From the NCBI RefSeq assembly GCF_900157305.1, contig NZ_LS974202.1:2480001-2544000 (forward strand): 64,000 nt of DNA, given 5' to 3'. This document shows positions 54 through 49,107 of this stretch, piece after piece. The notes below the pieces were generated by a model, which saw only the letters and a program-made list of their open reading frames with translations, searched no databases and had not been told where the DNA came from. Position 1 is the first letter of the stretch. Each line of letters begins with the position of its first letter. The position numbers and the translations under genes were made by a program. This stretch comes from Mesotoga infera (GTDB lineage: Bacteria > Thermotogota > Thermotogae > Petrotogales > Kosmotogaceae).

Positions 54-776
54 ATGGTCGAATTCAAAAATCTCACAGTGACATACAACCAGGGCCTGGA
101 AAATCAGAAAGTTGCTCTTGAAGAAGTGAATATGAAGATACTCGAAGGCCAGTTCATAACGATTGTAGGACCCAACGGGGCCGGAAAATCGACTCTCCTC
201 AAAGTCATACTTGGCGAAGTCAAACCGACGGAAGGTCTCTATATGATAGACGGCAAAGTAATGAACAACATGAAACCGCACAAACTGGCCTGCTTCATAG
301 GGAGAGTCTATCAGGATCCGAATACCGGTATCTTTCCGGCTCTGACAATAGCGGAGAATCTCATAATAGCTTCTAAAAAGGGTGGGCGTTCTATGAAGTT
401 CAGCAAAGTGAAGGAAGAGGCCATCTCCCTTCTTGCAAATCTTGGTCTGGGACTTGAAACGCGCCTCAAGACAAAGGCCGGTGAGCTGTCGGGTGGCCAG
501 AAACAATCTTTGGCAATGGTAATGGCGATCCTGTCACGACCGAGATTGCTTCTTCTGGATGAACACACGGCCGCCCTGGATCCGGTAAGCGCGCAGAAGG
601 TAATGGAGCTGACCCAGAGGATAAACAGAGAGTACGACGTCACGATAGTGATGATAACCCATAATATGGAGTTCGCCAACGCCTACGGTGAAAGGCTTTT
701 AAGGCTGATCGACGGAAGAGTTGCCCAGGATGGTGTCAGAGATCTCAAAACGAAGGCCGTCGCCGCGTTATGTTGA
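54..776 (+). CDS. ABC transporter ATP-binding protein (tryptophan/tyrosine-type uptake family)
   Basis: A 240-residue ABC ATPase that would power import through a membrane permease at the cytoplasmic face. Visible motifs are Walker A GPNGAGKST (residues 39-47), signature LSGGQ (145-149), Walker B LLLLDE (165-170), followed by a D-loop region and a switch histidine in MITHN near residue 203. Length and the HTAALDP segment fit the family usually annotated as putative tryptophan/tyrosine transport ATPase (TrpXYZ-like); the substrate is an inference. A strong AGGAGGTG ribosome site precedes the ATG. It is probably the last gene of an operon whose permease and binding protein lie upstream outside the window. 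Its 3' end overlaps by nine bases the end of the convergent flavoprotein gene. Confidence 0.85.
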   Translation: MVEFKNLTVTYNQGLENQKVALEEVNMKILEGQFITIVGPNGAGKSTLLKVILGEVKPTEGLYMIDGKVMNNMKPHKLACFIGRVYQDPNTGIFPALTIAENLIIASKKGGRSMKFSKVKEEAISLLANLGLGLETRLKTKAGELSGGQKQSLAMVMAILSRPRLLLLDEHTAALDPVSAQKVMELTQRINREYDVTIVMITHNMEFANAYGERLLRLIDGRVAQDGVRDLKTKAVAALC

Positions 777-1880
777 TCTTTGGTGTATTCCGCCGGTGAA
801 AAAGCTCTTGAAAACCAAAAGGGATACATTTTCCGCGTACCGGGAAATGTAATTCATGAAAATCCTGGCTGAACGCCTGCTCTTGAGAAGAAGAACGTTT
901 TTCTGAAGGTCGGCGTGAAACCGTCTTCTAAAGGAATCTGCGATCTGGAGATGCTTCACGATCGGGTATAACCTCTCCAGATATCTTTGACCGGCGGTCT
1001 TACCTTTGATTCCGTCTTCCACGATCGACAAGGCGGCCTGTCTTCCAGAATCGAGGGCGAAATCTATCCCCTCACCCGTCCAGTTATCTACAAGACCCGC
1101 ACTGTCACCTGCAAAGAAAAGTCCCTCGAAAGCTTTGTTCAGCTCGAGAACCTTCTCCATCTTGAAAAGCGGTATAGGGGTGCCGGTAAGCTCTACGTCT
1201 TCGTCGAAGGTTCTTTTTATAAGCATCTCCATCTCTTCGTAAGCCGGTACATTCTGTGCATCTGGATATACACCGCCACCGATAGAGTCGAAGGATTCTC
1301 CTGGAAACTTCCAGAGGTAGCCATCCTGCACAAAAGTTATGGAGGCACTTCCTGTAGGCGAACTGTAACCGTGATAGACTATCCCGTATGCCGGAGGTTC
1401 CAGATTTGCCAGCTTTGCTCCGAACACACCTCCTGCAACGATAACGAACTTACTTTCGATCTCGAGGTTTTCGCCTTTGACTAGAAAACCACCATCAGTT
1501 TTTTCAATTTCGCGGACCTTGGAGACGGCAAAATTCCCTCCCCTATCTATCACTGATTTTAGAAGAGAGTGATCTAACTCTTTGCGATCAACCGTAAAAA
1601 ACAAAGGACGCTTCGAAATATATGTCACTAAATCTCTGGCCACGCCCTCGTCGACGTTTCTAAACGAAATCTCTCTCGTTTCGAAGCCTCCTGGCTCGAT
1701 CTCAGGGAAGATCTCTCCGAGAACTCTAATAGAGCGTGGAGTCAGACCTCCTCCGCAGCCTTTGTAACGGGGAAAGGACTTCGAATCGATAAGAATGAAG
1801 TCGACGCCTTCCCTGCCAAGAATCCTCGCGGCGGCCAAGCCGGCCGGTCCGGCACCCACGACGGTTACCGTTCTAGTCAT
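768..1880 (-). CDS. Geranylgeranyl-reductase-family FAD-dependent oxidoreductase
   Basis: A 370-residue flavoprotein. The N-terminus has the Rossmann dinucleotide motif GAGPAGLAAA (about residues 9-18), followed by CGGGLTPRS typical of the geranylgeranyl reductase branch of the FAD-binding superfamily, and a second FAD motif FAGDSAGLVDNWTGEGI around residues 258-274. Members reduce prenyl double bonds or other hydrophobic substrates; which substrate applies here cannot be told. The gene starts inside the end of the MFS carrier gene (8-base overlap), so the two are translationally coupled. Its end overlaps the opposing ABC ATPase gene. The pairing with a transporter hints that the substrate or product is a small exported or imported compound, but this is inference. 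Confidence 0.82.
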   Translation of the reverse strand: MTRTVTVVGAGPAGLAAARILGREGVDFILIDSKSFPRYKGCGGGLTPRSIRVLGEIFPEIEPGGFETREISFRNVDEGVARDLVTYISKRPLFFTVDRKELDHSLLKSVIDRGGNFAVSKVREIEKTDGGFLVKGENLEIESKFVIVAGGVFGAKLANLEPPAYGIVYHGYSSPTGSASITFVQDGYLWKFPGESFDSIGGGVYPDAQNVPAYEEMEMLIKRTFDEDVELTGTPIPLFKMEKVLELNKAFEGLFFAGDSAGLVDNWTGEGIDFALDSGRQAALSIVEDGIKGKTAGQRYLERLYPIVKHLQIADSFRRRFHADLQKNVLLLKSRRSARIFMNYISRYAENVSLLVFKSFFTGGIHQRST

Positions 1881-37506: not shown

Positions 37507-38244
37507 ATGAAGACGAAGAAACGCACTTCTACGGATGTTGTGAACAAACTGAAAAAAATGATAGTCCTCGAAGATCTGGAGAGATTGCCCGGCGAGGTGG
37601 AGCTTTCCAACAGACTGGGTGTCAGCAGGACCATAATAAGGGAAGCGCTGAGGGTGCTGGAATACGAGGGAGTTACCAGAACCGTTCACGGCAGTGGCAC
37701 TTTCGTTCTGAAGAGAACAAGTTTGAAGATACTCTTCAACGTGAATTTCGAAATAGAGACCGATAGCGCGAGAGATATTCTTGATCTGATCGAACTGAGA
37801 AGCACGCTCGAGAGATCGGCGATAGCGCTTGCCGTTTCTCACGCGAGTTCGACCGATATTGAGGAGTTATCGCTCTGTATGGACAGGCTTTCCAGGGCGA
37901 TGGCTACCAGAGAGAATCTTGGCGATACCGACGCCAGCTTTCATAAAAAGCTTTTCGAGATCTCACACAACCGCTTCCTCAGGGAAGTCTTCGATGTGGT
38001 CTTCGATGGACTCGAAGTGCTATGGAAGTCCCCCCTCGGACTGGACACTTTCGGCGACGCGGGATTGCCTTTACACAGGGATCTTTACGAGGCGATTAGA
38101 GAGCGCAATCTTGATGTGGCGCTGGAGATTTACGACAGAATAATAAATCTGGACAGGAAAGACATTATGGACCTCACCGGTTATAAACCGAAATCGCAGA
38201 ACTTGCAGCATTCGATCACGGGAGTGAAGAAAGATGGAGATTGA
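37507..38244 (+). CDS. GntR-family (FadR subfamily) transcriptional regulator
   Basis: A 245-residue repressor. The winged-helix domain covers residues 10-75, with LPGEVELSNRLGVSRTIIREALRVLEYEGVTR-type helix-turn-helix pattern and the wing HGSGTFV. The C-terminal all-helical FCD ligand domain follows (ELRSTLERSAIALA, ASFHKKLFEISHN, HRDLYEAIRERN), with acidic and histidine residues placed to bind a metal and a small acid or sugar. It is the first gene of the glycan operon and its end overlaps the next start by 11 bases, so it very likely controls this operon and itself. Confidence 0.88.
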   Translation: MKTKKRTSTDVVNKLKKMIVLEDLERLPGEVELSNRLGVSRTIIREALRVLEYEGVTRTVHGSGTFVLKRTSLKILFNVNFEIETDSARDILDLIELRSTLERSAIALAVSHASSTDIEELSLCMDRLSRAMATRENLGDTDASFHKKLFEISHNRFLREVFDVVFDGLEVLWKSPLGLDTFGDAGLPLHRDLYEAIRERNLDVALEIYDRIINLDRKDIMDLTGYKPKSQNLQHSITGVKKDGD

Positions 38245-40423
38245 TGTCCTGAAGATGCTGGAGAGAAGAGACAAGTGGTACCTGGGCGGTGGCAACAGAC
38301 TTCTTTGGACGCCCCCTTTTCCGTTGCACCTCGATCGCCCCGGCGCCTGGGATTTTGTGAGTTATTTCGATTTGAGGATCGATCCGGGGTACACGATCAG
38401 CGTTGTCGATTGGGGAGTTCCGGTAGATTTTGTCTGTGTCGATAAACTCTGGAATCCGGCTACATTGAGAAGCCTCTTCCGTTCGGGCGACCTTGAAATG
38501 CTTGAAGAGAAGGCCCTGCTGAAGGAGGATTTTCTGGTGTCCAGGGTAACCCTGAAGAACAACTCGAAGGAAGCGAAAGAGCTGGATATAGTCGTTTGGA
38601 CGGCCCAGCAATGTTCCGACAGCGACAGCGAGGTCGATACGGAGATAATAGATGTGGCCGACAGCGGTATCGTTTTCAAGAAGAGACTCGTAAAGCCCAG
38701 GAGGAGACCTTATCCCGCTTACGTGATTTTGGCTCTGGAAGGGAAGGAAAGCCACAACGTATCATTTTCTGAGAGAACGGGAAATCTCCCGAATTTCAGA
38801 TTAAGCCCGTTCTACGAAAAGCTCGGAAACGATGGATTGATCGAGAGAATCGATACGAACGGCATCAACAGGGAGGGCTTGCTGTACATAGGTTTGTACA
38901 GGAAAGTGAAACTCGCTCCTGGAAACGAAGCGATTTTCAACTGCGGACTGGGCGCAGCCCCAGATGTGGAGGAAGTCGTGAAGGCAGCCAGAAAATCCCT
39001 CGCGTGCGACCCTGTAGAAGAGAGCCGTAGAAACTGGGAGTCGTACTTCAGATCACTTCCGCAATTTTCGATCGGAGAGCCATATTTGCAGAAATACTAC
39101 TATTACCGATGGTACGGTCTCAAGCTTTTCACCAGCAGCGTAAACGAATCCTTCATGAAACACCCGGCTATAGCCGAGGGACTGGATTATTTCCGGGCCT
39201 TCATAACTTACAGCGCACAGTGTCACATGCTCGAGACCAGATGGTCGGCCAGTCCAGAGGTGGCAATGGGGAGTCTCTTGAATTTCATAGAAAACCAGAG
39301 GGACGATGGCTCCTTCGCCGGGCATATATATGTCAACCAGTTGCAGGAGAACGGTTTTTACCATGCAGACTGGGGTAGAGCGGTGATGGAACTATACAGG
39401 ATACACCCGGACAGATTCTTCATAGAGCGTATCTACGGCCCCATGAAGAAGTATCTCGGGTATTTCGACAGGGTAAGGGACAGAGAGAACAGCGGACTAT
39501 ACGACGTGGTGGACCAGTTCGAAACGGGACAGGAGTACATGAGCCGTTACACCGTTGTAGATCCTATGGCCGACAGGTATGGCTGGATAAACAACATACG
39601 TCTCAAGGGCGTCGATGCCACGGTTTACGTGTACAACCTGAAAAAGGCTCTAGCCTGGATGGCCGGTCTTCTGGGGCTGAAAGAAGAGAGAAAGCTCTTC
39701 GAAGAGAGTGCCGCAAAGACGAAAAAGGCTGTACTCGAGCTCATGTGGGACGACCATGAAGAGATCTTTTACGATGTGAATCCCGTCGATTTCAAGAGAA
39801 CCGGCGTGAAGGCCGCCGTCTGTTTCTATCCGTATATGACCGATATAGTAGATGAATCTCATCTGCCGGGACTCAAAAAGCACCTGCTCAATCCGGATGA
39901 GTTCTGGACGGAATATCCTGTCGTATCCACGAGCGTCGATGATCGCCTCTTCAGCCAGTGGGCCGAGTGGAAGGGCAAACGCCACAATTGCCCGTGGAAC
40001 GGCAGGGTCTGGCCAATGACCAACAGCCACATGGTAGATGTTCTGGGCTTTTGTGCCAGAAGGTTCGACGATAGACTGCTCAGGGAGAAGACCGTGGAGC
40101 TGGTGAAAAAGTTCATAAAGATGATGTATTACGAGGGCGACATCGAAAGGCCCAATTGCTTCGAACACTACAATCCCTTCAATGGGAAGGCCTGTGTTTA
40201 CAGGGGTGTCGATGATTACCAGCACTCATGGGTAGTGGATCTGCTCTTCAGATACCTGGCCGGAATCGATTTCACCGAAAATGGCCTGACGCTTGATCCC
40301 TTCCCTTTCGGCATCGATTTCGAACTCGACAACCTGACGATCGCGGGCAAAAAGCTGAGGATAAGATCGAGTAAAGGCATTTTCGAGGCTGAGTACAACG
40401 GCAAGACAATAAATAGGCTTTGA
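38234..40423 (+). CDS. GH63/MGH1-like (alpha/alpha)6 glycoside hydrolase
   Basis: A 729-residue cytoplasmic enzyme (no signal peptide). The first 260 residues form a beta-rich N-domain; the rest looks like a six-hairpin toroid. CPWNGRVWPMTNSHMVDVL (about 590-608) matches the WRGPxWPxxN motif of GH63 and mannosylglycerate-hydrolase-like enzymes, and ERPNCFEHYNPFNGKAC with DDYQHSWVVDLLFRYL is the usual C-terminal motif. Such enzymes remove alpha-linked glucose or related sugars; the exact linkage is unknown. GGAGTG supports the ATG inside the end of the regulator gene. Confidence 0.75.
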   Translation: MEIDVLKMLERRDKWYLGGGNRLLWTPPFPLHLDRPGAWDFVSYFDLRIDPGYTISVVDWGVPVDFVCVDKLWNPATLRSLFRSGDLEMLEEKALLKEDFLVSRVTLKNNSKEAKELDIVVWTAQQCSDSDSEVDTEIIDVADSGIVFKKRLVKPRRRPYPAYVILALEGKESHNVSFSERTGNLPNFRLSPFYEKLGNDGLIERIDTNGINREGLLYIGLYRKVKLAPGNEAIFNCGLGAAPDVEEVVKAARKSLACDPVEESRRNWESYFRSLPQFSIGEPYLQKYYYYRWYGLKLFTSSVNESFMKHPAIAEGLDYFRAFITYSAQCHMLETRWSASPEVAMGSLLNFIENQRDDGSFAGHIYVNQLQENGFYHADWGRAVMELYRIHPDRFFIERIYGPMKKYLGYFDRVRDRENSGLYDVVDQFETGQEYMSRYTVVDPMADRYGWINNIRLKGVDATVYVYNLKKALAWMAGLLGLKEERKLFEESAAKTKKAVLELMWDDHEEIFYDVNPVDFKRTGVKAAVCFYPYMTDIVDESHLPGLKKHLLNPDEFWTEYPVVSTSVDDRLFSQWAEWKGKRHNCPWNGRVWPMTNSHMVDVLGFCARRFDDRLLREKTVELVKKFIKMMYYEGDIERPNCFEHYNPFNGKACVYRGVDDYQHSWVVDLLFRYLAGIDFTENGLTLDPFPFGIDFELDNLTIAGKKLRIRSSKGIFEAEYNGKTINRL

Positions 40424-40472: not shown

Positions 40473-41774
40473 ATGGATAGGGCAAGATATTCAAGGTTCT
40501 TTATCGTAGTCATTCTGCTGATTCTCTCTTCATTCGCGATAGGTGCGACAAAACTCAGGGTAACCACCTGGGCGGGCGCCGAAGAAGCCGCGCTTGACGA
40601 GGCGATCATCGCAGAATTCATGAGACTAAATCCGGAATATGAAGTTGTTTACGAACCGGTTCCCGGCGATTATTACCAGAAAATTCTAACAGACATTGGC
40701 GCCGGAACACCCCCCGATGTCATACTGCTGGATGCCGAAATGATCCCGGCCTTCGTGGAGGGCAAATACCTGACCGATATCAACCCCTTCATAAATAGAC
40801 TGAGCAGGGAGGGTGCGAGCGGAACGAACCTCGATGAGTACTTCCCCGTTCTCGTCGATATCTTCAGGTCAGGCAGGAGTCTCTATGCCCTTCCCAAAGA
40901 CACCAGCCCGATAGGCATCTTCTACAACAAGAACGTTTTCGACCAGTTCGGAGTCCCTTATCCGCCGGAAGGTGGCTGGACGATGGAGGAGTTCGCCGAA
41001 ACGGTCAAGAAGCTTAGCAAGGATACCGACGGCGATGGAAAGAATGATGTCTGGGGCTTCGCCTTCCCATCTTGGGTAGGCGTGGTAGTGCCGATCCTCT
41101 GGGCAGGCGGTGGAGAGGTCTTCAGCCCTGATTTCACAAAGACTTCGGGATATCTCAACAGTGACGTGAACGTCGGTACCTATAGTTTCTACATGGATCT
41201 CCTCGCCAAGGGCTATGCGCCTACACCACAGGAAGCCAGCTCTTTGGGCGGAACCTCTGCACTCTTCTATACCGGCAAGGTTGCCATGGTGATCACCGGA
41301 CGCTGGTTCAACGTCTCTATAAAATCCCAGATCGCGAAAGGTGCCAATCTCAAGGTTGGAGGCGCTTCGATACCGTACGCCAGCGAGCAAAGCAAAGCAA
41401 CAGTCACTTACGCTTCTGGCTGGGCCGTGCCATCGAACGTAGCCGACAAGGCTGGTGCTACCAAGCTGGCCGCCTTCCTGTCGAGCGAATATGCACAGAC
41501 CAAGAGATGCCTCGAAGGAGGACTAGCGATCTCGGCCATCAGGAGCATCGCTGAACTACAGGCCGCCAAGGACGCGCTGGATTCTACCTTTATAGGCATG
41601 CTCGATTACGCCCGGGTACCGGTAGGCTCGTTGACGAAGTACTACAGACCCCAGTTCGAAGATACGTGGGCCGAGGCCTTCGACAGGATGAACGTCGGAG
41701 GTGAGACCGTAAAACAGGCTATGGACTGGGCCGCCGCAACGATCGACGAATACATTGAAAAAGGTGAAAAGTAA
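40473..41774 (+). CDS. Sugar ABC transporter substrate-binding protein (family 1)
   Basis: A 433-residue secreted binding protein. The signal peptide (FFIVVILLILSSFAIGA) is followed by the typical LRVTTWAGAEEAALDEAI and, later, GDYYQKILTDIGAGTPPDVILLD and GIFYNKNVFDQFGVPYP, all hallmarks of the extracellular solute-binding family 1 for sugars and oligosaccharides. No lipobox cysteine is seen. AGGTGG precedes the ATG. A strong hairpin follows the stop. The glycosidases around it point to an oligosaccharide ligand. Confidence 0.92.
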   Translation: MDRARYSRFFIVVILLILSSFAIGATKLRVTTWAGAEEAALDEAIIAEFMRLNPEYEVVYEPVPGDYYQKILTDIGAGTPPDVILLDAEMIPAFVEGKYLTDINPFINRLSREGASGTNLDEYFPVLVDIFRSGRSLYALPKDTSPIGIFYNKNVFDQFGVPYPPEGGWTMEEFAETVKKLSKDTDGDGKNDVWGFAFPSWVGVVVPILWAGGGEVFSPDFTKTSGYLNSDVNVGTYSFYMDLLAKGYAPTPQEASSLGGTSALFYTGKVAMVITGRWFNVSIKSQIAKGANLKVGGASIPYASEQSKATVTYASGWAVPSNVADKAGATKLAAFLSSEYAQTKRCLEGGLAISAIRSIAELQAAKDALDSTFIGMLDYARVPVGSLTKYYRPQFEDTWAEAFDRMNVGGETVKQAMDWAAATIDEYIEKGEK

Positions 41775-41786
41775 CAGGTTTTCCTG

Positions 41787-41810
41787 AGGAGCGGCTATCG
41801 CGCCGCTCCT
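41787..41810 (+). terminator. Hairpin between binding-protein and permease genes
   Basis: AGGAGCGGC pairs perfectly with GCCGCTCCT around a six-base loop. The following TTCCTTATTC is not a strong T-run, so it is likely an mRNA-stabilising or partly terminating element that lets the binding protein be made in excess of the permeases. Confidence 0.6.
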
Positions 41811-41833
41811 TTCCTTATTCGGGAGGGATGGCT

Positions 41834-44107
41834 TTGAAGCACAATAAGCTTCTGATAGGTCTTTTTATATTCGTAGCGCTTCTGATGTTGTCGGGGTTCG
41901 CTATCCTCAATATATACGCGGCGGACGGTTATTCAAAATACGCTAGAGAAAACGAGGCCTCTCTACTCAAGAGCATAAAGCTCAACTACTTGAATCTTGC
42001 GGCTGATATAGACAACGCGTTGTACCCGCTTGTCGATGATCCACAAGCTGCCGGTAGTGTGGTTGAAAACCTATCCGACGATATAGTCTTCGCGGCTCTG
42101 TACGATTACGATGGCAAGTTGCTTGAAGACTTCGGCTACTCCGTTCCCGACGATCTGCCATCTTCGATTTTCTTCGAGAATCTGACTTTCTCCAGCGGAC
42201 TACCGAGGGCTGAAATTTCCAGATTCAATGATAAACTGTACATCCAGGCCGGAATTCTGACACTCGACGACACTGTGTTCGTTGTCCTTCTGAACAGATT
42301 CGGCGACTTGCTCGAGAATACTCTCGAAATTTACGATAGAGAGCTTCTGGTCTATTACGGAGATGAAAACAGTTTCAAGACGCCGGCCGGTGCGCCCGAA
42401 ATCGACAAAGCCACGCTCGGCGATCTCTTCAGAAGAACTATGAACAGCCAACGACCGGAATCGGCGGAGATATATTCAAGTAACGGTGAGCTGATAATTA
42501 ACGCCCTTGCGATCTACGATTCCGATAACTGGGATGTCATATCCTTCTTCTCGACGGTGACCTCGCCAGCCTTATGGAAGAGAAGTATCGATTCTTTGGC
42601 CGTCTTCATATGGGTTTCCGGGATAGCCTCGCTGATTTTTGCGCTTTTCTTTCTTTATATTTACTTCAAGAAAGTTCAAAAGGATCCGAAGATGAAGAAA
42701 TCCGCGCGCTTCCTTTACGGCCTGACGGCCTTTCTTCCCGCTATTGTCCTCGTCGCGATATTCAGTTACTCCATCTATGGAGAATCACTAATAGGTATCA
42801 GCGAAACGGTCGCCCTGAAGAACTCCAGGGGATGGTTCGGCGACGTAGAACGCTTTCTAGAGGTGAAAAGCCCGGAGTCTCCGTCCGAATTTATAGATAG
42901 ATCCAGAGAGACGACCGGTGCGAATTTTGTGATGCGTCAAGGAGGTTCCCTCCTGGCCTCCAACCTCACCCAAAAGAGGCTTTCAAATCTCGAGACTATC
43001 TCCTCAACCGCAATCGAAGGTGGAATTGTGAAGGGAACGGCGAAACTTAACGACGTTCTTCACACTTACATGACCAGAGAGATCTCTGGAATCGAAGCCA
43101 CCGTTCTGTACGAGGAGACGTCCAGAGAGAACACCGTGCTTTCGATACAGTTCTTCGCGATCGGTATGATTCTGACTTTGCTGGTGATTGCTGTCGTGAG
43201 CGGCTTCATAATAAACAACATCCAATCAAGCATACTTATAAAGCGAACCTTCATAGGCTACGGCTTTCTGATGCCGGCGCTGGTCCATCTTATCTGGTGG
43301 GCAGTAGGTCCTATGGGATTCGCCCTCTTTCTGGCCTTCAGGAGATGGAGCATAGTGGACGCCGCCAAACCATTTGTGGGGCTGGAAAACTTCATAGAGA
43401 TCTTTGGCGATTTCAAGTTCTGGAACGCTTTAAAAAACACGGCCGTTTATTCAATCTACGTTCCGATAGGCATGTTCATTTCGCTTCTTCTGGCCATCGC
43501 AGTCAACAAACTGGGTAAGCTATCCATAGTTCTGAGAGTCCTTTACTATCTCCCGGTCGTCACGGCCGGCGTCGCGACGACCATAGTCTGGCGTTGGATC
43601 TTCAACCGTGACTTCGGAGTTCTCAATTTCATTCTCGGACTGGTTGGAATCAAGCCGATAGCTTGGCTTGAATCACCGCAGTTTGCACTGATCTCGATGA
43701 TGATAATCGGTATATGGTCGGCCATAGGGAGCCAGTTGCTGATCTTTCTGGCCGGTCTACAGGGTATCCCCAAGGATTTTTACGACGCCGCCAGCGTCGA
43801 TGGAGCTAGCAAATCGAAGATCTTCTTGAAGATAACCCTCCCGTTGTTGAAGCCAACGAGCCTCTTCGTACTGGTGACCAGTGTGATAGGATCCTTCCAG
43901 GTTTTCACACCGATATACGTTCTCACCCAGGGAGGTCCCCTGAGATCGACAGACGTCGTTTTTTACCACATCTGGCAGTCGGCATGGGTGGATATGAGAA
44001 TGGGGTACGCCGCCGCCCAGTCATGGATACTCTTCCTTTTGCTGGCCGTTCTGACATTCGTCGAATTCAAGCTCTTCGGTAAAGAGAGCTGGCAGGCGTA
44101 CTTCTAA
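41834..44107 (+). CDS. Sugar ABC transporter permease with large N-terminal ectodomain extension
   Basis: A 757-residue membrane protein. The C-terminal 290 residues are a normal MalF-type sugar permease: YGFLMPALVHLIWWAVGPMG, six helices, and the cytoplasmic EAA loop DAASVDGASKSKIFLKITLPL that docks the ATPase. The first 470 residues are extra. They contain a helix (about 6-28), an extracytoplasmic domain of about 220 residues, two helices (about 255-275 and 290-310), a second extracytoplasmic domain of about 130 residues with a polar, mixed alpha-beta look, and another helix (about 440-460). The layout resembles tandem Cache-type sensor domains. TTG 41834 has GGAGG seven bases upstream; ATG 41828 lies too near it. 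No frameshift joins the parts; the frame is continuous. Confidence 0.85.
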   Translation: MKHNKLLIGLFIFVALLMLSGFAILNIYAADGYSKYARENEASLLKSIKLNYLNLAADIDNALYPLVDDPQAAGSVVENLSDDIVFAALYDYDGKLLEDFGYSVPDDLPSSIFFENLTFSSGLPRAEISRFNDKLYIQAGILTLDDTVFVVLLNRFGDLLENTLEIYDRELLVYYGDENSFKTPAGAPEIDKATLGDLFRRTMNSQRPESAEIYSSNGELIINALAIYDSDNWDVISFFSTVTSPALWKRSIDSLAVFIWVSGIASLIFALFFLYIYFKKVQKDPKMKKSARFLYGLTAFLPAIVLVAIFSYSIYGESLIGISETVALKNSRGWFGDVERFLEVKSPESPSEFIDRSRETTGANFVMRQGGSLLASNLTQKRLSNLETISSTAIEGGIVKGTAKLNDVLHTYMTREISGIEATVLYEETSRENTVLSIQFFAIGMILTLLVIAVVSGFIINNIQSSILIKRTFIGYGFLMPALVHLIWWAVGPMGFALFLAFRRWSIVDAAKPFVGLENFIEIFGDFKFWNALKNTAVYSIYVPIGMFISLLLAIAVNKLGKLSIVLRVLYYLPVVTAGVATTIVWRWIFNRDFGVLNFILGLVGIKPIAWLESPQFALISMMIIGIWSAIGSQLLIFLAGLQGIPKDFYDAASVDGASKSKIFLKITLPLLKPTSLFVLVTSVIGSFQVFTPIYVLTQGGPLRSTDVVFYHIWQSAWVDMRMGYAAAQSWILFLLLAVLTFVEFKLFGKESWQAYF

Positions 44108-44123: not shown

Positions 44124-44963
44124 ATGAGGGACAACAAAATCATGACGATTATAACCAGAATAGTTATTTTGGCCCTTCTGATTCTTCTGGGTTTATCGAC
44201 TCTTTTGCCGTACATACTGATGATCTCCTTCTCTTTCATGGCAGAGTTCGAAATGTACAGACTTCCGCCCAAGTTGATCCCCGATGTCCTCCGCCTGGAG
44301 AATTACGTGGAGATGTGGAAGTCGCAGCCCTGGGGAAGATACATCTTCAACACGCTTTTCGTGACTGTCTGCGTGCTGATCGGACAGATAATACTGGTGG
44401 CCATGGGCGGGTATGCGCTTTCGAGGCTTTACTTTCCCGGCCGAGACTTCATGTTCAAGCTCTTCATCACTTTCATGCTCCTGCCCGGCGTCGTAACGCT
44501 GATACCTGGGTTCATAATTCTCCACTCCCTCAACTGGGTGGATACTTACTGGGCGATGATCGTTCCGGCTCTTGGAAACATCTGGGGAATGTTTTTGATG
44601 AGGCAGTATATGCTCAGCCTTCCCAGCAGTATAGAGGACGCGGCCAGGATAGACGGCGCCTCTACATGGCAGATCTTCTGGAGGATCATCATGCCTCTCT
44701 GTAAACCGGTCATCGCGACGGTGGGCACCTTCACTTTTCTGGGAACCTGGCGCTCTTTTTTCTGGCCTCTTATAGTCACCAGAAGCAAGGAAATGAGGGT
44801 GGTAGAAGTGGGAGTGGCCATGTTCTCCTCGCAGTACACGACCAATTATCCGGCGCAGATGGCCGCGGCAGCGCTCTCTTCGATACCCATGATCCTTATC
44901 TACGTCATCGCTCAGAAATGGATAGTACAGGGGATAAGGCTTACATCGGGATTCGACAAGTGA
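44124..44963 (+). CDS. Sugar ABC transporter permease (MalG type)
   Basis: A 279-residue permease with six membrane helices. The EAA loop SSIEDAARIDGASTWQIFWR followed by IIMPLCKPV is complete. It pairs with the preceding, extended permease to form the membrane channel. It starts 16 bases after the previous stop. No ATP-binding gene follows, so a shared MsmK-type ATPase from elsewhere must energise it, as is common for this transporter class. Confidence 0.92.
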   Translation: MRDNKIMTIITRIVILALLILLGLSTLLPYILMISFSFMAEFEMYRLPPKLIPDVLRLENYVEMWKSQPWGRYIFNTLFVTVCVLIGQIILVAMGGYALSRLYFPGRDFMFKLFITFMLLPGVVTLIPGFIILHSLNWVDTYWAMIVPALGNIWGMFLMRQYMLSLPSSIEDAARIDGASTWQIFWRIIMPLCKPVIATVGTFTFLGTWRSFFWPLIVTRSKEMRVVEVGVAMFSSQYTTNYPAQMAAAALSSIPMILIYVIAQKWIVQGIRLTSGFDK

Positions 44964-44987: not shown

Positions 44988-46019
44988 ATGTTCAATCTAG
45001 AAGATCTTAGCCAGTTGAGAAACGAACTGTCAAGATCCATATCGGCCGAAAACCCCTATGGGAGGGTGTCGGGGGGAGCCTTGGAAGATCCCAATGGTTC
45101 CGGCCCGGCGAGAAGGCTGGGAAAGGGCTGGAAGGTGAGGCCCTGCATAGATATACAGCCGGGTGAAACGGTTGAGCTGGCCAAAATCACTGGACCGGGA
45201 ACTATTAGACATATCTGGATGACCGTCGATAGCAAAGCCTACAGAAGTTGCCTCATAAGATTCTATTGGGACGGCGAACCCTTTCCTTCAGTCGAAGCTC
45301 CCCTGGGAGATTTCTTCGCCTGCACGCACGGTTTGAGGTATAGCGTGAACTCGCTGCCCGTCGCTGTGAATCCGTCTGGTGGCTTCAATTGCTATTGGCC
45401 AATGCCTTTCAGGGAGAGCGCGAGGATTACACTGGAGAATCTCGCGGCCAAACCCGTTCAGAATTTCTTCTACCAGTTCGACTATTCGCTCGGCCAGCTT
45501 CCAGAGGGTGCCGCGTATTTTCACGCGTCTTGGCGGAGGTCTATGACTACCCGAGAGAATCCTGAACACATAATTCTCGACGGGGTCAGCGGTACCGGTC
45601 ACTATGTAGGCACGGTCGCAGCCTGGACGCAGTTCTCGAACGGCTGGTGGGGAGAGGGAGAGGTCAAGTTCTTCCTTGAGGGGGAAGAAGATCCGACCAT
45701 CTGCACGACAGGAACTGAGGATTACTTCGGAGGTGCCTGGTGTTTTGGTGAGACTTTCTCCGCGCCTTTTTGTGGCTACCCACTCTGGAGAAAAGAGGAG
45801 GGAGAAGTTCCCAGACACGGTCTATACCGCTGGCACATATGCGACCCAGTCAGGTTCAGAAAGTCGATAAAGGTAACTGTTCAGGCCCTCGGCTGGTACC
45901 CGGATGGAACTTTCCAACCTTTGACAGACGATATAGCGACCGTCGCGTACTGGTACCAGAACGAACCCCACCGAAACTTCGCGGCAGTTTACACCCTCCA
46001 GGAACTCTGGCCGAGATAG
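44988..46019 (+). CDS. GH172 (DUF2961) glycoside hydrolase
   Basis: A 343-residue protein with the DUF2961 fold pattern: GPGTIRHIWMTVDS, RFYWDGEPFPSVEAPLGDFF, a middle NPSGGFNCYWPMPFRESARI, and TTGTEDYFGGAWCFGE with its paired acidic residue. DUF2961 is now family GH172, whose studied members act on D-arabinofuranose or fructofuranose links. It has no signal peptide, so it works in the cytoplasm on imported sugar. CGGAGGG precedes the ATG. Its position between the permeases and a second glycosidase suggests the imported glycan carries a furanoside, which is inference. Confidence 0.88.
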   Translation: MFNLEDLSQLRNELSRSISAENPYGRVSGGALEDPNGSGPARRLGKGWKVRPCIDIQPGETVELAKITGPGTIRHIWMTVDSKAYRSCLIRFYWDGEPFPSVEAPLGDFFACTHGLRYSVNSLPVAVNPSGGFNCYWPMPFRESARITLENLAAKPVQNFFYQFDYSLGQLPEGAAYFHASWRRSMTTRENPEHIILDGVSGTGHYVGTVAAWTQFSNGWWGEGEVKFFLEGEEDPTICTTGTEDYFGGAWCFGETFSAPFCGYPLWRKEEGEVPRHGLYRWHICDPVRFRKSIKVTVQALGWYPDGTFQPLTDDIATVAYWYQNEPHRNFAAVYTLQELWPR

Positions 46020-46032
46020 GTAACGTGCCGAT

Positions 46033-49000
46033 ATGATTCGAATACTGGGAAAACGTGAAAGCCGCCTGGAAAAAATCATTTCAAAAACTAAACACAGTGT
46101 CAGTCATGATTTAGATACTGTAAGTAAAAATGATGTAGTTTTATTTATAGATACAGTACCCGATAAAGATATACTATCTAGAACTATCGGCAGGACTCCG
46201 GTCGTGCTTTACGGCTCTGCCGTGAAGGCTCTCCAGTTGATCGGTATCGAAGAGAGAGGAGCGATAGAAGAGTCGAGAGTCTCTTTGAGCGACGCTCCGT
46301 GGGATAAGAGGGGTTTCCAGTCTTACAGGGGTCACCCGCTCTTTCACGGGCTGCACGGCGGCTTTTACAGCATCCATCTCAACGCGTACGAAAAGATGCC
46401 CGACGTTTTTTATTACAGGGGAAATGCGGCGAAAGTGATCGCTGTGGAAAAGCGATATATAAGCTATGTAAGAGAGAATGCTTTAATCTGGCTCCACACG
46501 TTTGAAGGGTTTCCCGTTCTTTCGATCGGCGGCTTGTTGCCGCTAGAGCGTGAAGACGACCCATACTGGAGAGAAGTCGAAAAGTTCGTTGAAAACACTC
46601 TTGAATTCATGTCGGGTGGTGGACAGGGAGGATCATACTGGACCGAGGCGTATTGCGTTTGCAGGCACGTTTTCTTCGACCGTGATTCTGAGATTCCCTC
46701 GCTTTCTCCCGTTATAATCTGGCCGGACGCTTCCATCGCCGTCGAAAATGCCTGCGGTTACCTGAGTACTTCCGGAGAGAGATTGCTGGCAAATATGAGT
46801 GATGAGCGGATAGAAGAGGTCTGGGCTCACCCTTTCAGGATTCTAAAATTTCTGGAATTCTCCATCGACGGAAAGCCACTTCCTCTGAGCGCCAGGTCGG
46901 TTTTTTGCACGCCCGAAAGAGTGGAGTTCAAACTGGAGTGCGGAAGAATTAATGTCTTCAGCAGTCTGAAGGAGCCCTTCCTCTTCGTGCAGGTAGACCC
47001 GAACGATCGACGGGAACATACTATTGGTGTTTTATTCGAGTCGGACATGAGAATCATGTGGCCCATGGACGAAGCTTACAGCGGCGATAGGTTCTACACC
47101 GTCTTCGAAAGAGGTGTCCGCCTTTTCACCGAAGACGGTCAAATGAGAGCTTTAATAGTCAACTCGAATCCGGTGAGGATAGAAATCGGCGACGACGGAA
47201 AGTCGGTCACCGGAAGATTCGAGAGTCGCTTCGAAGGGACCGGTTATATGGCGATAATCGCAAGCATCGCGGGCGAGGAGTGCCCCCGATCGATCGATAT
47301 GCAGAAAGAGATAGAAAGGGCCAGAAACTTCTATACGGCCTATCTGGAAAGGGGAAGGGTGAGAACCGACGATCACCGTCTGAACGAGGCTCTCGATCTG
47401 GCGCGCGTGGGCGCTATCAAATTCAGGGCCGCCACTCCCGGCATAGGAACCGGCCTCATGGCAGGGTACGCTTCGAGCAGGCCGGGGTGGTTCAGCGCTA
47501 GACCCGGGTATGCCTGGTATTTCGGCCGCGACAGTCTATGGTGTTCGCTGGCCCTTCTGGATATCGGGGACTTCGAAACCGTGAGGGAAAATCTCGAACT
47601 TCTGATCAAGTACCGGAGGCTTGACGGGAAGATCTATCACGAATTGACCTCGAGTGGTGTGGTTCACTACGACGCCGCCGATTCGACACCACTCTTTCTG
47701 TACACCCTTTACAGATATGTCAAGCACACGGGCGACCTCGATTTCGTCAGAAAAAATCTCGGCTCTCTGCGCGCGGCTCTCGATTACTGCGCCGGAACCG
47801 ATTCAGACGGGGACGGTCTAATAGAGAACACTATTGCCGGGCACGGCTGGATCGAAGGGGGCAGGCTTTACGGGGCGAGCGCCTCGTTCTATCTCAACTG
47901 TATATGGCTGGCGGCCCTCAGGGGAGTCGGGGAACTGGCCGAAAAACTCCGTGACGCTGAGTTGCGAAATACGGTCGCCTCCTTGGAGGAGAAGGCGGTC
48001 GCAGGACTGGGAAAATTCTACGACCCTTCGAATGGATACGCGCTCGGCATAGACCGGTACGGAAGGCAGATGCCCTACAGGACCGTCATGGCTTCGATGG
48101 GCGTAATCTTCGACGCTGTGTCGAGCGAGAGTATCGGAGAACAGTTCGATGAGTTCGCCACCGACGACTTCTCTACCGACTGGGGTGTAAGGATAATCGG
48201 GAAGAGCTCGGGCATCTTCAACCCCAAAGGTTACCACGAGGGAAGCGTCTGGCCCCTCTTCACGGGCTGGGCTGCTCTGGCGCAGTTCAAAATCGGAGCC
48301 GATCTCGACGGTTACAACCACACTCTGGCCAACCTGTACACTTGCAGGGACTTCTCAGGAGGCTATATACCGGAGGTTCTCAACGGCGAGTCCTATGAGC
48401 TTTCGGGAGTCTGCCCGCACCAGGCCTGGTCGGAAACTATGGGCTTTCATCCCTTTTACGAAGGCGTACTGGGCTTCGAACCGGATTCTCTTAGGGGAAC
48501 GTTGAGACTCGGGCCTTCCATACCGCCGAATCTGGGAAGGCTCGAAGCCGGGCCGCTGGTCTTCGGAGACAACTCGCTAGATCTCCGTTACGCTTCTTCC
48601 GTAGTCCTGGGCGAATTAATAGGGGTGACTCAGCGTTTCGAATTGAGACTCAAGAGGGAGGTTCCCGTTTACTTCACTCCCCATATACCGGCATACGCCG
48701 GAAGGATAGAATTCAGCGTAAACGGCCGCAAAAGACCGGTCAAGGTTTACCGGCGGAGAACGGCGACCGCCTGCAGAATTGAGCCGGACGGACCGGTGAG
48801 CGGCAGGGAACTGGAGATCGAGGTCAGGTACAGCGTCCCCTTCCTCCTGATGTCAGTAGAACCGCAGTTGCACAGGGGAAAGAAGAGCCGCCAGCCCAGG
48901 ATCGTCTCCATCGAAAGAACAAATAAAGGCTGGGAGTTGACACTCGCCGTTCCGGGCGGAAGATCGTGCATTCCCTTCCTGGCCTCGAAGGGTTTGAAAG

Positions 49001-49107
49001 CCAAAAACGCCGTCTTTGAGGACGGGAAGCTGTGTGTTTCTGGCGACCGGACGGGATACGAACTCGTAAAAATCTTACTTCGACACGAAGAACTCCCTAT
49101 CCTCTGA
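46033..49107 (+). CDS. Amylo-alpha-1,6-glucosidase-like (alpha/alpha)6 glycosidase
   Basis: A 1024-residue cytoplasmic enzyme. The first 430 residues are a beta-rich N-region without known motif. The toroid domain (about 440-850) includes RPGYAWYFGRDSLWCSLALLD, the FGRDS motif of glycogen debranching C-domains, YHEGSVWPLFTGWAAL and CPHQAWSETMGFHPF. A C-terminal beta-domain follows. The substrate is probably an alpha-linked oligosaccharide or a derivative. The first 50 or so codons are far more A+T-rich than the rest (AAA, TTA, ATA, AGT, ACA are used repeatedly). The ribosome site before the ATG is weak. Last gene of the operon; its end overlaps convergent ruvA by 11 bases. Confidence 0.8.
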   Translation: MIRILGKRESRLEKIISKTKHSVSHDLDTVSKNDVVLFIDTVPDKDILSRTIGRTPVVLYGSAVKALQLIGIEERGAIEESRVSLSDAPWDKRGFQSYRGHPLFHGLHGGFYSIHLNAYEKMPDVFYYRGNAAKVIAVEKRYISYVRENALIWLHTFEGFPVLSIGGLLPLEREDDPYWREVEKFVENTLEFMSGGGQGGSYWTEAYCVCRHVFFDRDSEIPSLSPVIIWPDASIAVENACGYLSTSGERLLANMSDERIEEVWAHPFRILKFLEFSIDGKPLPLSARSVFCTPERVEFKLECGRINVFSSLKEPFLFVQVDPNDRREHTIGVLFESDMRIMWPMDEAYSGDRFYTVFERGVRLFTEDGQMRALIVNSNPVRIEIGDDGKSVTGRFESRFEGTGYMAIIASIAGEECPRSIDMQKEIERARNFYTAYLERGRVRTDDHRLNEALDLARVGAIKFRAATPGIGTGLMAGYASSRPGWFSARPGYAWYFGRDSLWCSLALLDIGDFETVRENLELLIKYRRLDGKIYHELTSSGVVHYDAADSTPLFLYTLYRYVKHTGDLDFVRKNLGSLRAALDYCAGTDSDGDGLIENTIAGHGWIEGGRLYGASASFYLNCIWLAALRGVGELAEKLRDAELRNTVASLEEKAVAGLGKFYDPSNGYALGIDRYGRQMPYRTVMASMGVIFDAVSSESIGEQFDEFATDDFSTDWGVRIIGKSSGIFNPKGYHEGSVWPLFTGWAALAQFKIGADLDGYNHTLANLYTCRDFSGGYIPEVLNGESYELSGVCPHQAWSETMGFHPFYEGVLGFEPDSLRGTLRLGPSIPPNLGRLEAGPLVFGDNSLDLRYASSVVLGELIGVTQRFELRLKREVPVYFTPHIPAYAGRIEFSVNGRKRPVKVYRRRTATACRIEPDGPVSGRELEIEVRYSVPFLLMSVEPQLHRGKKSRQPRIVSIERTNKGWELTLAVPGGRSCIPFLASKGLKAKNAVFEDGKLCVSGDRTGYELVKILLRHEELPIL

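Follow-up and report, generated by a model that had tools for sequence, protein, structure and literature searches.

The window analysed here, 64,000 nucleotides of the single-contig, 2.97 Mb genome of Mesotoga infera (genome positions 2,480,001–2,544,000), encodes an ABC importer subunit that very probably consists of a sugar permease and, in front of it, a four-helix, sensor-like module with a dCache-like and an sCache-like domain. We propose, with a probability of roughly 0.45, that this module is an extracytoplasmic, ligand-responsive regulator that acts in cis on the importer. A Cache-like module on the permease of an importer would add a transporter to the known outputs of Cache domains, and it raises the question of whether a ligand can gate sugar import from outside without acting through the binding protein.

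One open frame joins the extension to a CUT1 permease

The extended permease is encoded by a single open frame of the forward strand that starts at ATG 41828 or TTG 41834 and ends with a stop at 44107 (757–759 amino acids). A ribosome site, GGGAGG, is located about 6 nt upstream of the TTG but only about 1 nt upstream of the ATG, and the start methionine of the orthologues in two sister genomes aligns with the position of the TTG. Considering the spacing of the ribosome site and these two orthologues, TTG 41834 appears to be the likelier start, and the start chosen in the initial annotation may thus be exact. Where the extension meets the permease core, we see no start codon inside the frame that is preceded by a good ribosome site.

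The N-terminal 467–470 or so residues precede a UgpA/MalF-type (CUT1) core, which is matched by Pfam BPD_transp_1 (residues 548–744, E 9.7e-15) and by the UgpA model (residues 471–750, E 5e-38). The core has both the BPD_transp_1 domain and the EAA loop, the ATPase-coupling motif of ABC importers, and its gene adjoins those of a solute-binding protein (SBP) and a partner permease, as is the case for CUT1 permeases. Along the length of the core, residues 476–752 align with residues 23–295 of a short sugar permease (7cad_A), and the P2 loop that MalF-type permeases carry between TM3 and TM4 is missing. An extra N-terminal segment in one frame with an EAA-bearing permease, as originally described, is therefore borne out by the open frame, the Pfam match and conservation in 15 genomes. 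The accompanying label 'MalF-type' is loose, since the core belongs to the short UgpA/SugA-like kind, which has no MalF P2 loop.

Table 1 Features of the extended permease, its locus and its second subfamily. Positions are those of the window unless a locus is named.
Feature	Position	Strand	Remarks
Extended permease gene	41834..44107	+	757 aa from TTG 41834; 759 aa from ATG 41828
TM1	41852..41920	+	residues ~9–31; predicted to be continuous with the first long helix of ectodomain 1 (helix 2–65)
Ectodomain 1, dCache-like	41918..42577	+	residues 31–250; long helix and two alpha/beta sheets; AF2, Foldseek, profile comparison
TM2	42578..42667	+	residues ~251–280; AF2
Basic cytoplasmic loop KKVQKDPKMKKSAR	42668..42709	+	residues 281–294; sequence, AF2 helix boundaries, positive-inside rule
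TM3	42710..42775	+	residues ~295–316; AF2
Ectodomain 2, sCache-like by secondary-structure order	42776..43123	+	residues 317–432; long helix and one alpha/beta sheet; AF2
TM4	43124..43216	+	residues ~433–463 (helix 431–463); a few residues before the first permease helix; AF2
CUT1 permease core, UgpA/SugA-like, no P2 loop	43238..44104	+	residues 471–759 (289 C-terminal residues)
EAA loop YDAASVDGASKSKIFLKITLPLL	43781..43849	+	residues 652–674; read from sequence
GntR/FadR-type regulator	37507..38244	+	first gene of the likely operon; Pfam
MGH1-like / GH63-related glycosidase	38234..40423	+	729 aa; Pfam
Cognate solute-binding protein, SBP_bac_1	40473..41774	+	nearest solved: Lmo0181 (5f7v), arabino-oligosaccharide-binding protein (6rjy)
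Hairpin between SBP and permease genes	41786..41811	+	10-bp stem; 41770–41827, −26.6 kcal/mol, z −3.5
Second permease subunit, UgpE/MalG-like	44124..44963	+	279 aa, unextended; Pfam, family model
DUF2961 / GH172-type enzyme	44988..46019	+	nearest exo-alpha-D-arabinofuranosidase 8ic8, E 3e-98
Glycoside hydrolase-like protein	46033..49107	+	1024 aa; GDE_C / DUF608 / MGH1-like matches
Second-subfamily extended permeases	L044:460-2583 and L045:161-2299	−	extension ~16% identical

Predicted structure of the extension

The AF2 model of residues 1–490, calculated from seven sequences (pLDDT 87.9, pTM 0.85), places the elements of the extension in the order TM–ectodomain–TM–TM–ectodomain–TM. The four flanking TM helices and the high confidence of this model substantiate the earlier claim that the extension has its own helices and two ectodomains. 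In ectodomain 1, a long N-terminal helix that emerges from TM1 is followed by distal and proximal alpha/beta subdomains, as in a dCache domain, with the alpha/beta parts at residues 86–155 and 173–245. The helix of TM2 (248–285) extends beyond the membrane, and the loop that connects it to TM3 in the cytoplasm is strongly basic and, at about 14 residues, too small for an output domain. Ectodomain 2 has the sCache layout of a single alpha/beta subdomain with a long first helix and two TMs; its DSSP order is a helix that continues from TM3 (291–345), a second helix (352–363), strands (366–429) and a last helix (431–463). The permease begins right after TM4, at residue 468. A full-length model from six sequences contains the same extension elements; the pLDDT of its core is below 40, and the packing of the ectodomains on the core is unreadable there.

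Both ectodomains are thus situated between two TM helices and begin with a long helix that is continuous with the preceding TM in the AF2 model; Cache sensors show the same placement and the same long first helix (PMC4822843). The Foldseek queries were the complete extension and the complete protein, and ectodomain 2 was covered within them. The best bacterial matches of the extension were dCache domains of chemoreceptors and kinases with moderate E-values (the MkcA ligand-binding domain, 3lid, 2p7j, TlpA, PctA and TlpC; 9heh, E 6e-6). The target-normalised TM-score for PctA was 0.53–0.54, and double-PAS proteins, which are intracellular, were interspersed among the matches with similar scores. 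No MalF chain was among the matches listed for the extension, and the full-length model yielded nothing beyond them.

In a profile comparison with hhalign, ectodomain 1 aligned collinearly with 13 Thermotogota dCache domains over 152 columns at E 0.011, compared to weaker values for four controls (E 0.054, 0.18, 0.13 and 0.28), a likeness that is suggestive, not decisive. No curated Pfam or NCBIfam family covers the extension, the matches listed for 13 members contain neither dCache_1 nor any other Pfam Cache family even at E 10, and a sequence search for solved relatives of the extension gave none that is credible. On this evidence, the assignment of both ectodomains as Cache-like in the initial annotation stands in part: the predicted fold and the Foldseek matches, and weakly the hhalign comparison, support a dCache architecture for ectodomain 1, and the order of secondary structure elements makes an sCache-like assignment of ectodomain 2 plausible.

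Several genuine Thermotogota dCache domains carry an R-x-W-Y or similar site, in place of which the extension has SSIFF, so the binding of a ligand is not assured. The missing ligand-site residues leave room for a structural role.

The fused frame is a clade-wide variant that evolves unevenly

Of 61 related genomes, 10 contain the extension itself, and a profile search detected it in 15 of 103 Thermotogota genomes that represent 6 of 38 genera and four family groups. A wider profile identified 18 places, in each of which the extension belongs to a long frame that either includes a permease or runs into the end of its contig; the extension without a permease was not found in the 103 genomes. 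When the core was used as the query, all complete matches of at least ~50% identity turned out to be extended, the rest of these being truncated by contig ends, and the next match, ~42% identical, was an unextended permease of 295 amino acids. All extended members form one clade in the core tree (local support 0.996). Relatives with two separate genes were not seen among these genomes; there is no orthologue at all in the sister genomes G001 and G009, and contig ends truncate the loci of G008 and G003. A scan of genome contigs with one peptide pattern returned six loci, all labelled Thermotogae or Kosmotogaceae, and a search of plasmids gave no match.

The fusion is hence not peculiar to one assembly, and its conservation in 15 genomes of six genera excludes chance. 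That sequencing or assembly artificially joined two genes is a negligible prospect, as the same fused frame recurs in these genomes and in separate public assemblies, and nothing was found in its favor. Neither Pfam and NCBIfam nor the open-access literature yielded a description of the extension as a feature of a permease subfamily. We conclude that the extended permease is a variant of CUT1 importers that is clade-wide in parts of the Thermotogota. A second extended subfamily with the same architecture (707–725 amino acids) adjoins the first in two genomes and has its own SBP. Within the phylum, the two extended subfamilies and the paralogues that naturally lack the extension can serve as controls.

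In comparisons with distant families, the core is 66–69% and the SBP 62–69% identical, and the ectodomains 14–20%. In the comparison with the closest relative, the extension has a dN/dS of 0.21, as opposed to about 0 over the first ~106 residues of the core (the sequenced part) and 0.035 in the SBP. By these sequence measures, the extension is under purifying selection, yet it diverges far faster than the core or the SBP, as expected of a sensor. Five of its residues (G96, G103, D231, W235 and Y414) are kept in 13 of 13 distant members. The retention of these residues and of the fold, together with a dN/dS well under 1, speaks against a purely structural module, in which a Cache-like fold that no longer binds a ligand would serve assembly, oligomerisation, stability or periplasmic spacing. 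The very fast divergence of both ectodomains, the missing dCache ligand signature and the presence of large unrelated ectodomains on further importers of the same genome are in line with such a module, which we nevertheless consider improbable.

The genomic neighborhood points to a probable oligosaccharide importer

The genes from the regulator at 37507 through the 1024-aa glycosidase-like protein that ends at 49107 likely form one operon. Judging from the nearest relatives of the SBP and of the DUF2961 protein, an arabino-oligosaccharide binder and an exo-alpha-D-arabinofuranosidase, respectively, the substrate of the importer is probably an oligosaccharide. The hairpin between the SBP and permease genes is a probable attenuator or mRNA-stabilising element that would result in more SBP than permease. 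The operon contains no ABC ATPase; a genome search identified a UgpC-like ATPase above the cut-off at 2434085–2435179, which is a candidate partner.

The order of SBP, extended permease and UgpE-like permease is kept in every related locus that is long enough to show it. This arrangement is compatible with the main rival explanation, namely that the SBP docks on the ectodomains, which would capture and orient it as a functional counterpart of MalF P2 placed before the permease rather than within it. According to work cited in PMC3150292, MalF-P2 contacts MalE throughout the cycle, and the extended permease has no P2 loop of its own. However, the SBP is 62–69% identical between families and the ectodomains 14–18%, a mismatch in rates that argues against a tight conserved interface, as a tight docking face would be expected to be steadier. 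Furthermore, the predicted fold resembles the ligand-binding domains of sensors, and MalF is absent from the Foldseek matches listed. In our estimation, a docking role of the ectodomains is rather unlikely.

A proposed regulator acting in cis

In the model that we favor, the Cache-like domains would bind a small molecule, which may be the substrate, a product of its breakdown or some other cue in the periplasm. The ligand would change the conformation of the ectodomains outside the membrane, and TM4 would relay this change to the core of the permease. Import would thus be regulated in cis from outside, and the permease would be, in effect, the output domain of a Cache sensor. We infer every step of this path, from the cue through the ectodomain and TM4 to the core. 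The stronger version of the model, in which the channel subunit of the importer is itself the receptor and the tandem dCache and sCache domains sense a ligand and gate import directly, is a tentative one that we hold to be possible but short of even odds. Were it true, transport, and not phosphorylation or chemotaxis, would be the output of a Cache sensor. To our knowledge, CUT1 importers offer no direct precedent for regulation of this kind.

The extended permease contains no output signalling domain, and the permease alone follows the extension. No MCP signalling domain was detected in the genome by a search that found MCPs in Thermotoga maritima as a control, and the only dCache proteins detected in the genome were a GGDEF protein and a GGDEF/HD protein, both below the Pfam cut-off. 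With no chemoreceptors detected and no output domain present, the chain would have no effector besides the permease. A link of the extended permease to chemotaxis was rejected on the same MCP search.

The extension could alternatively be a receptor module that uses helix contacts to signal transporter occupancy or the presence of a ligand to another membrane protein, either a kinase or a protein of the GGDEF type, with the permease as a co-sensor. BceAB-type and Pst-type transporters are known co-sensors. Cache domains are otherwise joined to signalling outputs (PMC4822843). Against this, no conserved kinase or cyclase was recognised among the annotated neighbors in related loci, no chemoreceptors and just the two sub-threshold dCache proteins were detected in the genome, and the cytoplasmic loop of about 14 residues leaves no classical output. 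We regard such a co-sensor as distinctly improbable, and the link between transport and signalling that had been offered as one possible function in the initial annotation is accordingly disfavored. The two other functions suggested there, ligand sensing and reception of the binding protein, correspond to the favored model and to its main rival.

Relation to known permeases and sensors

The closest counterparts of the core are UgpA and SugA (LpqY-SugABC, 7cad, 8ja7), which have the same short core, a BPD_transp_1 domain, an EAA loop, a UgpE-like partner and an SBP. These permeases lack an ectodomain module, whereas here the core comes after about 467 additional residues. A permease and a large extracytoplasmic part are also combined in one polypeptide in E. 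coli MalF; there, P2 interrupts the permease between helices 3 and 4, unlike the present extension, which lies N-terminal to the core, brings its own four helices and is predicted to have a Cache-like fold. From the same phylum, Noll et al. 2008 (PMC2246101) describe CUT1 permeases with a huge ectodomain, MalG1 and MalG2 of Thermotogales, in which a hydrophilic region of ~500 residues has an unknown function, and also describe the MalF loop. MalG1 and MalG2, however, are MalG subunits in which a soluble insert separates helix one from helix two, without extra TMs and with no Cache fold shown; the passages of that paper on MalF and MalG do not describe the architecture of the extended permease.

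The sensors PctA, TlpC, TlpA and vpHK1S, of the dCache/sCache type, share the predicted fold of ectodomain 1, its TM flanks and its long first helix. The extended permease differs from them in having no MCP, kinase, GGDEF or other output domain; its chain runs on into an ABC permease. Upadhyay et al. 2016 (PMC4822843) regard Cache domains as the main extracellular sensors of prokaryotes and state that they are found exclusively in proteins with an output signalling domain; neither 'transporter' nor 'permease' appears in the text of that paper. Our searches of the open-access literature returned no account of an ABC permease fused to a Cache-like module. A likeness of role may be drawn to alpha2-delta of animal voltage-gated calcium channels, in which a Cache domain likewise serves a transport protein (PMC4822843); alpha2-delta, unlike the fused extended permease, is a separate subunit of a eukaryotic channel.

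Other importers of the genome

The permease query matches 48 places in the genome, yet no MCP signalling domain was detected. A frame of 776 amino acids at L024:2516-4846 (+), corresponding to ~1034015–1036345 of genome C1, has SBP_bac_1 (residues 50–336) N-terminal to BPD_transp_1 (residues 566–762) and is thus a complete SBP fused to a CUT1 sugar permease. Two permeases in the MalG position, L023:4435-7206 (+) with 923 amino acids and L022:3798-6209 (+) with 803, carry soluble inserts of ~500–700 residues after the first helix. The insert of the former resembles the Thermotogales MalG insert described by Noll et al. 2008 (PMC2246101), and that of the latter belongs to a different system. A CUT1 permease of 416 amino acids at L020:2823-4073 (+) starts with about four additional hydrophobic helices and lacks an ectodomain, and another of 447 amino acids at L022:2445-3788 (+) has extra hydrophobic helices in its N-terminal half, at about the position of the MalF periplasmic loop. 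Near the start of the window (57–809, +; genome 2480057–2480809), an ABC ATPase-like stretch is interrupted by an internal TGA and may be a pseudogene or contain a frame break.
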